From positions 1 through 36,334 of the forward strand of contig JAPLNQ010000165.1 in the NCBI GenBank assembly GCA_026401075.1: a stretch of 36,334 nt of DNA, given 5' to 3'. The position numbers and the translations under genes were made by a program. The notes under the pieces are model-generated. The model worked only from the letters and a program-made list of their open reading frames with translations. It searched no databases and was not told the origin of the DNA. This stretch comes from Planctomycetia bacterium (GTDB lineage Bacteria > Planctomycetota > Planctomycetia > Pirellulales > UBA1268). This document shows, piece after piece, positions 12,979 through 35,717 of the stretch; the stretch's first letter is position 1, and every line of letters begins with the position of its first letter.

Positions 12979-13605
12979 CTACTTGGAGCAAAGCTCGATG
13001 ATCAGATTGGCCTGTACTGGGATCGACACGTCATCCGAAACAGGCAGGCGATCGACACGCCCCTCCGGCACGCCACCTTCACTTCTGGAGAGGAAGTCGG
13101 GCACATCACGGCGAAACTCGGCCAGGGCCGAATGCACGAGTTGCAGGCTGGGCTTGCGATTCTTGACACGGACGACGTCTCCCGCACGCACCGAATAGCT
13201 CGGCACGTCGACTCGCCGACCATTGATCGTGATGTGGCCGTGCATCACGAGTTGCCGGGCGCCGGCACGCGACGGCGAAAAGCCGAGCCGATGCACGACA
13301 TTGTCGAGCCGCCGCTCGAGCAGCGACATCAGCGTCTCGCCCGTATTGCCCTTCCCGCGTTCGGCACGGGAGAAGTAGGTACGAAACTGCCGCTCGAGCA
13401 CGCCGTAGTAGTGCTTGACCTTCTGCTTCTCGCGCAGGTGAACACCATATTCGGTGGGCTTCGAACGCCGCTTCTGCACCATGCCCGGAGGCGTGGGCCG
13501 ACGCTCGAAAGCACACTTCGGCGTGTCGCAACGATTCCCCTTCAAGAACAACTTGAGGCCGTCGCGGCGGCAGAGTCGGCAGACAGGCCCGGTGATGCGT
13601 CCCAT
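12979..13605 (-). CDS. rpsD: 30S ribosomal protein S4 (zinc-finger type)
   Basis: Primary 16S rRNA-binding protein that initiates 30S assembly. 208 residues from ATG 13605 (MGRITGPVCRLCRRDG). The N-terminus has four cysteines in the C-x2-C ... C-x4-C arrangement (CRLC and CDTPKC) of zinc-binding S4. The S4 RNA-binding domain follows (RRLDNVVHRLGFSPSRAGAR, HGHITINGRRVD). The frame is open further upstream to 13743, but that stretch is not conserved. It is preceded by a 163-base gap after rpsK and followed by rpoA. In some bacteria S4 represses the alpha operon; no operator could be recognised here. Confidence 0.96.
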   Translation of the reverse strand: MGRITGPVCRLCRRDGLKLFLKGNRCDTPKCAFERRPTPPGMVQKRRSKPTEYGVHLREKQKVKHYYGVLERQFRTYFSRAERGKGNTGETLMSLLERRLDNVVHRLGFSPSRAGARQLVMHGHITINGRRVDVPSYSVRAGDVVRVKNRKPSLQLVHSALAEFRRDVPDFLSRSEGGVPEGRVDRLPVSDDVSIPVQANLIIELCSK

Positions 13606-14267: not shown

Positions 14268-14327
14268 ACTCGGCTACGCAACTCGGTTACGCAACTCGGC
14301 TACGCAACTCGGCTACGCAACTCGGCT
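14268..14327 (-). repeat. 13-base tandem repeat overlapping the rpsM stop codon (4.6 copies)
   Basis: Plus-strand unit ACTCGGCTACGCA at 14268, 14281 (one change), 14294 and 14307, plus a partial copy at 14320. On the minus strand the unit is TGCGTAGCCGAGT. The rpsM stop TAG (14326-14328) overlaps the end of the partial copy, so the array begins at the stop and runs about 60 bases into the rpsM-rpsK gap. Confidence 0.9.
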
Positions 14328-33595: not shown

Positions 33596-34444
33596 TCACG
33601 GGGAGCAGGCACGGTCCGCCGCCAGCGCAATGCCGGTGAGCACCAGTTCCGGCATCTCGATCGCCCCGGGAAGGGCATCGCGGACCACCCCCCGCCAGCC
33701 ACCGGTGAGGATCACGTCGGCCTCGACACCGATCGACGCCCTGGCCTCCTCCACAAGCCTGGCGATCGCCCCACGAATACCCCAGCCGATGCCGGCGGCG
33801 ATCGCATCCTGCGTTGAGCGGCCGGGCATGACCGGAGGCGTTTCCTGCTCCAGGGCGGCCACGGCCGGCAGCAGGCTTGTGCCTTCGGCGAGCGCCCGGG
33901 CCATCAGCGCAGGCCCAGGCAGGATGGCGCCCCCGAGAAAGGCCCCGCTCGCGGAGACGAGATCGACCGTGGCGGCGGTCCCGCAGTCGACGATGATCAC
34001 CCCGCGGCCCGGCCGCCTGACCAGGCCGGCAGCCGCGGCGGCCGCCAGTCGGTCGATCCCCACCCTGTGAGGCTCGGCGACCATGATCTCCAGCGGCAGA
34101 TCCCCGTGGACGATCCGCCGCTGCTTCAAGGAGCGATGCCTGGTGGCAGAGAGTTCGGTGATTGCGGCCTCGAGTCTGGCCGCAGCGGCATCATGCACGC
34201 TGGCCACGAGCACGACGGCAGTGGTGGGCGCCGCCTGATTGAGCCAGTTTTCCAGGTTGTCGGGCCGAAATCCGTGGCTGTCGAGATCCAGCCGTTGCGT
34301 GACCGTCGGCAGCCGCCGTCCCGCCACGCCCGCAGCGTCGATACCCTCGTCAGACACCACGGCCAGTTTGATCCGCGAGTTGCCCACGTCGGCCAACAGC
34401 ACGGCATCGCCAAGGCAAACGGGAGCTTTGTTGGGAGTTGTCAT
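33596..34444 (-). CDS. coaX: Type III pantothenate kinase
   Basis: Phosphorylates pantothenate, the first step of CoA synthesis; an ASKHA-fold enzyme. 282 residues from ATG 34444 (MTTPNKAPVCLGD) with GAGGT upstream. Phosphate 1 motif LLADVGNSRIKLAVV; pantothenate/dimer region HRVGIDRLAAAAAA; phosphate 2 motif VIIVDCGTAATVDLV; then LGGAILPGPALMARALAEGT and the C-terminal DVILTGGWRG. Its normal family lengths are 250-270. It lies between obgE (284-base gap with the 35-base repeats) and rsfS. Confidence 0.93.
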   Translation of the reverse strand: MTTPNKAPVCLGDAVLLADVGNSRIKLAVVSDEGIDAAGVAGRRLPTVTQRLDLDSHGFRPDNLENWLNQAAPTTAVVLVASVHDAAAARLEAAITELSATRHRSLKQRRIVHGDLPLEIMVAEPHRVGIDRLAAAAAAGLVRRPGRGVIIVDCGTAATVDLVSASGAFLGGAILPGPALMARALAEGTSLLPAVAALEQETPPVMPGRSTQDAIAAGIGWGIRGAIARLVEEARASIGVEADVILTGGWRGVVRDALPGAIEMPELVLTGIALAADRACSP

Positions 34445-34580
34445 GGCGGCGACCTCAATCCATTGATGATACCGCAAGCGATCTGCCGTGGATCGACCGG
34501 GCTGCCGATCCGCAATAAAACGGCGAGCCGGGATCGGCGGAAGCTCGAGGAGCTGTCTTCACGAAAAACACGACATCGTG

Positions 34581-34715
34581 CCGGGACACGGACAAGTTGA
34601 AAACTTGCCGCCACGGGGGGAAGGACGAGACCGAAAGAGTTCGACCCGTGGCCACGAGTTTTTAACTTGTGGAATCCGCGCCAGGACACGGACAAGTTGA
34701 AAACTTGCCGCCACG
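34581..34715. repeat. 35-base repeat, two direct copies plus an inverted one (REP-like)
   Basis: Bases 34581-34615 recur at 34681-34715 with one mismatch, exactly 100 bases apart. Each copy contains CAAGTTGAAAACTTG, an inverted repeat with a 6-bp stem. Between them, at 34647-34670, is a related copy in the opposite orientation (about 19 of 24 positions alike). The cluster begins 12 bases after the obgE stop. The alternating orientation resembles REP/BIME elements or a small MITE remnant. Confidence 0.8.
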
Positions 34716-34727
34716 AGGCCGCCGCCG

Positions 34728-35717
34728 CTAGGCCGCGTCGAGCTGCGCCACGATCGCGTACAACAGCCGGTCGAGCCCCTGGCCGGTGACCGCGCTCACG
34801 GCGATCACGTCGCGGCCGATCTGTGCGGAGAGGGCCTCACGGATCGACTCCGCATCGGGGAGTTCGGCCTTGCTCACGACCACGATCTCCGGCCGCGTGC
34901 CCAGACGCTCGTCGTAGCGAACCAACTCATCCCGAATGGCCCGATAATTCATCAGCGGATCGCTGCCGTCGACCGGTGATGGCTCGACCACGTGCACGAG
35001 GATCCCGGCCCGCTCCACATGCCTCAGAAACTCGTGCCCGAGCCCGATGCCCGCGTGGGCTCCCTCGATCAGGCCCGGCAGGTCGGCGAGCACAAAACTG
35101 CGATCCCGCGACACGGCCACGATGCCAAGCATCGGCTTCTTCGTGGTGAATGCGTAGTCGGCGATTTCGGGGCGGGCCCGGGAAAGCCGCGAGAGAAGCG
35201 TGCTTTTGCCGGCGTTCGGCTTGCCCACGAGCCCGACATCGGCAATCACCTTCAGTTCGAGCAGCAGGCGGCGGGCCTCCCCCTGCTCGCCGGGGGTGGT
35301 CTCGCGAGGGGCGCGATTCGTGGACGACTTGAAGTGGAGATTGCCCCACCCCCCTTGCCCGCCCTTGGCAGCCACAATCGTGTCACCGGGTGTGGCCAGA
35401 TCCTTGAGCACGAGCCCGGTTGTCTCGTCGATCACGACCGTGCCGGGGGGCACGAGCAGCACGAGATCCGCCGCCATGCGGCCGTGGCAGTTGGTCGGTC
35501 CGCCCGAATCGCCACTGGGGGCCCGCCACTGCTTGCGATGGGCGAGCGGAGCCAAGGAATCGACGCCAGCCTGGGCCCGCATGATCACGCTGCCGCCGTC
35601 ACCACCGTTGCCACCATCGGGGCCGCCAAGAGGGACGTATTTCTCCCTACGAAAACTCTTGCAACCGCGTCCGCCGTTGCCAGCCGCCACTTCAATTTGG
35701 ACGCGGTCTACAAACAC
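34728..35717 (-). CDS. obgE: GTPase Obg/CgtA
   Basis: Essential GTPase of 50S maturation and stress signalling. 329 residues. The Gly-rich Obg fold ([54 protein letters not shown]) precedes the G domain with G1 [12 protein letters not shown]2 region [12 protein letters not shown]3 [20 protein letters not shown] and SA-type G5 [11 protein letters not shown]-like (VSAVTGQG). The G4 site reads SKAELPD instead of NKxD. The C-terminal OCT domain is absent, as in many lineages. The start is GTG 35717, two bases after the rpmA stop, so coupled. Confidence 0.95.

Follow-up and report, generated by a model that had tools for sequence, protein, structure and literature searches.

The systems closest to the repeats described here are the REPINs and RAYTs of Pseudomonas fluorescens SBW25, the REPs and BIMEs of Escherichia coli with the transposase TnpA-REP, and the GTAG-tagged palindromes of the PVC group. 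In SBW25, as in the planctomycete genome analyzed here, REPINs are inverted doublets that form hairpins, lie in intergenic DNA, and are accompanied by extra tandem clusters, and a cluster of each type lies beside a single-copy RAYT (PMC3116915); our genome differs in the hairpin itself and in adding many regular head-to-tail units of 40 to 41 bp. The E. coli system also combines a tag with a hairpin and has a bulge in the stem of one of its REP types, and its enzyme TnpA-REP (YafM; PDB 4er8), in which Y115 is catalytic (PMC8266576), can be aligned in its HUH and tyrosine regions with the RAYT described below, although the identity is low and our RAYT has a longer N-terminal part. TnpA-REP is described as tolerating no change of GTAG (PMC8266576), whereas the tag in our genome is GTGG. 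Both REP families and RAYTs have previously been described from planctomycetes such as Rhodopirellula baltica, and the GTAG-tagged families of R. baltica and of Opitutus terrae (GTAG-20) resemble ours as tagged palindromes from the PVC group that often lie downstream of genes and are linked to RAYTs; GTAG-20 is mostly GTGG tagged, and head-to-tail dimers, described there as absent or rare in most genomes, make up 13 of 40 adjacent pairs in a sample of our genome (PMC3733652).

The repeats were noticed in a stretch of 36,334 nucleotides (here, the window) from a planctomycete genome of 4,155,231 bases in 301 contigs that is 93% complete (G000). On the minus strand, the window carries the gene pair obgE (34728 to 35717; Pfam GTP1_OBG and MMR_HSR1), which is the upstream gene, and coaX for type III pantothenate kinase (33596 to 34444; Pfam PF03309), which is the downstream gene. 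An earlier note, written from the sequence alone, had described two near-identical copies 100 bases apart around an inverted relative in the gap between them, and this description was confirmed: positions 34577 to 34618 and 34677 to 34718 are 93% identical over 42 nt at an offset of 100 bases, and the inverted relative at 34640 to 34670 is 81 to 83% complementary to both. The dyad CAAGTT/AACTTG that the note assigned to each unit is present in the outer two units, but the middle unit has CGAGTT/AACTTG. The 16-nt core ACAAGTTGAAAACTTG matches the window three times with up to three mismatches, a number reached by 0 of 100 dinucleotide shuffles.

The boundaries of the unit were read from a pile-up of other copies in the genome, i.e., 111 alignments outside self in a 436,334-base sample of G000 that comprises 20 stretches of 20 kb from core-bearing contigs plus the window, so that densities in this sample are not genome averages. 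The pile-up delimits a REPIN of ~71 nt (~34646 to ~34716; no strand assigned), an inverted doublet of two REPs with their GTGG tags pointing outward. Its left-type REP (34646 to 34674, plus strand; single-stranded DNA fold z = −3.4) has GTGG at 34648 to 34651 and a straight 9-bp stem (34652 to 34660 and 34664 to 34672), as in a profile of 45 left-type units, while its right-type REP (34681 to 34716, minus strand; z = −3.0) has its GTGG as CCAC at 34711 to 34714 and a stem with a one-base bulge, as in a profile of 102 right-type units. A third REP, also right-type with a bulged stem and delimited by the pile-up, lies at 34583 to 34618 on the minus strand (CCAC at 34611 to 34614; z = −3.2). Between the third REP and the doublet, a left extension aaggacgagaccgaaagagttcgac (34620 to 34645, plus strand), which occurs in many copies beside some left-type REPs, has 14 to 26 overlapping alignments elsewhere in the sample. 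On the coaX side, the cluster borders on a stretch (~34522 to 34583, plus strand; 7 alignments in the sample) that belongs to another dispersed repeat family, unrelated to the first and not listed in the earlier note. Further matches to this second repeat (gagccgggatcggcggaagctcgaggagctgtcttcacgaaaaacacgacatcgtgcc) occur in each of the five genomes of the genus (G000 to G004), even in G003, where the CAAGTT family is absent. With three alternating units, the left extension, and the second repeat, and with mixed clusters elsewhere, the region is a mosaic of alternating REPs and other short motifs of the kind known as a BIME.

A unit consists of GTGG, a three-base linker that is mostly CGG or CCA, and a hairpin around CAAGTT-TTY-AACTTG, and in the single-stranded DNA folds of all three window units the tag remains single-stranded on the 5' side of the stem, which closes on a three-base loop. 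A recognized variant of the GTAG tag, GTGG is present in 74 of 75 cores in the sample without any pre-filter for the tag. The profiled units were pre-selected for at most one mismatch to GTGG and typed by the bases adjoining the core, which placed 10 of 157 distinct units in neither type and outside both profiles. Among the profiled units, CC lies immediately 5' of GTGG in 76 of the 102 right-type units and in 36 of the 45 left-type ones, and both types tend to follow a C-tract. The folds are straight for left-type and bulged for right-type stems, and this asymmetry resembles that between the distinct REP types of E. coli BIMEs. As single-stranded DNA, the doublet folds into one long hairpin (z = −4.2).

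The earlier note had named uniqueness in the genome as the finding that would refute its interpretation, and the cluster is far from unique. With at most one mismatch, the 16-nt core is present at 222 places in G000, and the reversed control at 0; on the basis of this control and of the shuffles, chance was rejected as an explanation. BLAST of the 180-nt region against G000 gave 94 matches, and the copies are very similar, with alignments of ~100 nt that reach up to 96% identity. A 25-nt form with at most three mismatches was found 238 times in G000 and in 0 of the 391 other genomes among 392 drawn from the phylum. Across 59 genomes (G000 and relatives), the core is present at 25, 18, 5, and 0 places in the congeners G002, G004 (72% complete), G001, and G003, respectively, and every copy in G001 has a mismatch. 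Outside the genus, 3 of 54 genomes have one or two places with a one-mismatch core, and the one place displayed from each lacked the tag.

Arrangement was analyzed in the same sample using gene calls from a home-made codon-usage caller; with a slightly different search pattern than in the tag count, this analysis gave 73 rather than 75 cores. These form 33 clusters, 9 of which are singlets. Among the 40 adjacent pairs, the commonest type has the tags outside (22 pairs, with a core spacing of 37 or 38 bp in 20), followed by head-to-tail pairs (13, with a spacing of 40 or 41 bp in 11) and pairs with the tags inside (5). Inverted REPs with tags outside, as required for a REPIN that forms a single hairpin, are the layout of the window doublet and of 22 of 40 pairs. 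Although 82% of the sample was called as coding, 72 of the 73 cores are intergenic (P = 3e−52). Of the 29 clusters that lie between two called genes, 13 are in convergent, 12 in co-directional, and 4 in divergent gaps, and the remaining 4 of the 33 clusters fall outside these classes. Convergent gaps account for 21% of gap length, yet hold 13 of the 29 clusters (P = 0.003), and 10 of the 12 co-directional clusters lie closer to the 3' end of the upstream gene than to the gene that follows (P = 0.02). At one locus (L016 1150 to 1260; G000 C39), tandem partial units (gacgagacccgtggccgcac) lead into a REP doublet, which suggests local growth of tag-bearing fragments by slippage. We also noticed that a longer repeat containing ggctggcttcagcacgcagcaaccgcacgt adjoins a right-type REP in G000, G001, and G004 (L032, L035, L066, and L074), so that the same right end is joined to different left parts.

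A Pfam search for Y1_Tnp in G000 identified two genes (L061 1220 to 2060, C255; L062 1380 to 2195, C222), the ends of which carry inverted palindromes particular to each gene, ggggacgggagcgaatttc in the first and aaaacggtgcctggcaccaaat in the second. Both are RAYT-like genes with TIRs or REPs at their boundaries and have no relation to the window repeat, and mobilization by either was rejected on the grounds that their ends are different palindromes and that no core lies in their loci. In G002, a further Y1-type gene (L116 ~1500 to 2700; G002:C196) is flanked by several copies of the palindromic repeat gatcccccggcttgcgccgggggcttttat, likely another family of repeats that has a transposase of its own.

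The earlier note had also proposed looking for a RAYT, and by reading the gaps of ~700 bp between neighboring repeat clusters we found one that the Pfam family search had missed. An open frame with RAYT motifs, single copy in G000, lies at C142:13640 to 14284 between two clusters of the window's repeats. Cores lie upstream at 13411, 13453, ~13527 (inverted), and 13565 and downstream at 14295, 14336, ~14417 (inverted), 14455, and 14496, the nearest being within ~60 bp and ~15 bp of the gene, respectively. The protein scores 82.9 bits against NCBIfam NF047646, the equivalog model for the REP-associated tyrosine transposase (cut-off 80), and 15 bits against Pfam Y1_Tnp, which is below the cut-off of 23. 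Among 177,635 PDB sequences, 4er8 was its only match, and the HUH motif and the catalytic-tyrosine region align with that structure, where we take the position aligned with the tyrosine region to be Y115. Both the NCBIfam and the PDB match place the gene among the RAYT-family Y1 HUH transposases. The note's view of the layout as a BIME or as the trace left by a small non-autonomous transposon is supported by the REPIN/BIME arrangement, the >200 copies, and the presence in this genome of a RAYT with these repeats on both sides. A RAYT of the G000 type was not found in the drafts G001, G002, and G004, which hold some copies of the repeat, and in G003, the sole match is a weak one, to a different Y1 gene.

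Matches to the RAYT are present in 19 of 60 family genomes and are strong (at least 65 bits) in 7, including G000. Against NF047646, one of five other RAYTs scored over the cut-off, and four fell short (63.5 to 79.8 bits). The six other loci with strong matches, from other genera, were inspected, and each has its own repeats beside the RAYT. In G072, GTGGCGCATGCCTCCAGGCATGCG...CGCCAC lies beside the gene in the same outward-facing layout as in G000; in G015, G029, and G059, the RAYTs have GTRGGACAGGCTTCAGCCTGTC alongside; and in G061, the tag of the repeat is not clearly GTRG. Counted across 11 genomes, where one palindrome may count on both strands, the G072 palindrome is present at 124 places in G072 and at 0 to 1 in the other 10 genomes, that of G015, G029, and G059 at 177, 66, and 366 places, respectively, and at 0 to 5 in the other 8, and that of G061 at 17 places in G061 and at 0 in the other 10. 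All three palindromes tested are lineage specific. We note that the pattern GCATGCCTCCAGGCATGC in G072 also catches a second abundant palindrome, GCAAGCCTCCAGGCTTGC, which is altered on both sides of the stem, so that there are apparently two REP sub-families in this genome. More broadly, at the best 80 of 328 related loci in GTDB genomes, a repeated GTRG-tagged hairpin lies within 400 bp of the RAYT match in 44 of 80 cases and is absent in 36, compared to 1 of 78 control segments, while two control tag pairs gave 6 and 5 of 80 loci.

In G000, the RAYT has msrB (Pfam SelR) on one side and argF (Pfam OTCace) on the other. Outside G000, where these neighbors were recognized by eye, both flank the RAYT in G015, argF follows it in G059, and msrB precedes it in G081 and G029. 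The msrB-argF gap of G002 (L259; G002:C69, 7611 to 8575) contains a different Y1-type frame of 234 codons flanked by the repeat aagcccgaagcgccagcgagaggaaaccgcgacg, a fragment matching this frame precedes argF in G001 (L115 1 to 540; G001:C150), and in the corresponding gap of ~420 bp in G003, no transposase was seen. The msrB-argF site has thus held different RAYT-type genes within one genus. Turning to the gap in which the window cluster lies, the distance from the obgE stop to the coaX start is 21 nt in G003, which lacks the repeat, versus 283 nt in the window, and the extra DNA in the window includes the REP units and part of the second dispersed repeat; the G003 gap is too diverged to place the insertion point or to read a target duplication. 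In G001 and G002, obgE and coaX are on separate contigs, the ends of which carry yet other repeats. Most of the obgE-coaX spacer is explained as inserted repeats, not as a conserved regulatory region.

We estimate a probability of roughly 0.87 that the cluster is a REPIN with one extra REP, belonging to a new genus-restricted REP family that is moved by the C142 RAYT. This reading builds on what was observed: the sequence is repeated, its units share a tag and a hairpin, the doublets have a regular spacing, the copies favor intergenic DNA and are linked to one RAYT, and the family is confined to its lineage. That the RAYT cuts and copies the repeats we infer from the linkage, the co-occurrence, and the site without an insertion in G003. 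Points against this reading are the poorly aligning part of the RAYT (residues ~40 to 70), its Pfam Y1_Tnp score below the cut-off, the copies in G001, G002, and G004, where no such RAYT was found, the 36 of 80 related loci lacking a repeated GTRG hairpin, and the four of five related RAYTs that fall short of the NF047646 cut-off. The repeat is probably a tiny mobile DNA hairpin, and the C142 gene is most likely the single gene that copies it. The enzyme, as an HUH/tyrosine single-strand transposase, would recognize the GTGG hairpin in single-stranded DNA, cut and rejoin it, and would have copied the doublet into intergenic places such as the obgE-coaX gap, whereas the tandem arrays of 40 to 41 bp perhaps expanded in place through slipped replication or recombination.

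Three other explanations were weighed against this one. The RAYT of the family could be dead, in which case the copy numbers would reflect old transposition and local tandem growth. The gene could be damaged because residues ~40 to 70 align poorly with relatives, and the share of head-to-tail pairs (13 of 40) is in agreement with tandem growth; yet the frame is open, the HUH and tyrosine regions are conserved, and the ~100-nt, up to 96% identical alignments in G000 are unlike the few mismatched copies in G001, and we consider a dead family unlikely. A much smaller chance is left to the repeats being MITEs moved by a DDE transposase or another Y1-type gene and lying beside the RAYT by coincidence. 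G000 does contain two other Y1_Tnp genes, and repeats at dozens of places may land beside any gene, but the different end palindromes and coreless loci of both genes argue against this highly improbable scenario, as do the presence of clusters on both sides of the RAYT and the recurrence in relatives of a RAYT paired with its own tagged hairpin.

It is likewise very unlikely that the cluster is primarily a host regulatory RNA or terminator, under selection between obgE and coaX and mobile only in a secondary sense. The preference of copies for the 3' side of genes would fit such a role, and so would the strong hairpin predicted on the transcribed strand: folded as RNA on the obgE-coaX strand, the whole stretch reaches −61 kcal/mol (z = −6.4), which supports in silico the suggestion of the earlier note that a large hairpin could form in the obgE-coaX transcript. 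Against this, the cluster is absent from the G003 gap and from 391 genomes of the phylum, it has no Rfam match at the gathering threshold, and no T-tailed terminator was detected at the REPs, the one weak site lying in the neighboring repeat and not exceeding expectation. In the transcript, the doublet would fold into a stable hairpin that separates obgE from coaX, and an effect of this hairpin on the two halves of the mRNA or on mRNA stability, as the note also proposed, is a guess, possible but unproven. E. coli BIMEs are bound by IHF, gyrase, or Pol I.

Returning to a REPIN family moved by the C142 RAYT, we put forward a tentative extension that is possible but doubtful as a whole, namely, that in this lineage the guide tag of the REPs has shifted to GTGG and the cutting dinucleotide of the RAYT from C/T to C/C. 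The C-tracts would then be the cut sites, successive cutting and joining at CC would explain the 40- to 41-bp arrays, and the msrB-argF site would be a recurrent seat of RAYT-type genes that replace one another. In the Marinomonas enzyme, a change from GTAG to GTGG is described as having moved cutting to CC (PMC8266576).

The kind of element described here is already known; added to it are the REP family, its GTGG tag and the accompanying C-tracts, the abundant arrays of head-to-tail units, and the RAYT together with the site that it occupies. In the parts of the planctomycete REP/RAYT literature that we drew on, we found no description of the CAAGTT family, but a similar family may already be listed among the REP consensus sequences of PMC3733652. 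E. coli genomes with a RAYT hold more REPINs than those without (PMC8049555), and the copy numbers in our genus, based on five genomes, one of which is 72% complete, fit this pattern. With these findings, an uncultured planctomycete is represented by a complete REP-RAYT pair, and there is a small natural comparison within one genus, with 222 cores in the genome with the RAYT, 25, 18, and 5 in those where the RAYT was not found, and 0 in the congener lacking both, which bears on whether REPINs decay after RAYT loss. With its GTGG tag and C-rich flanks, the family offers a naturally altered system in which to test the guide-tag model of REP cutting.
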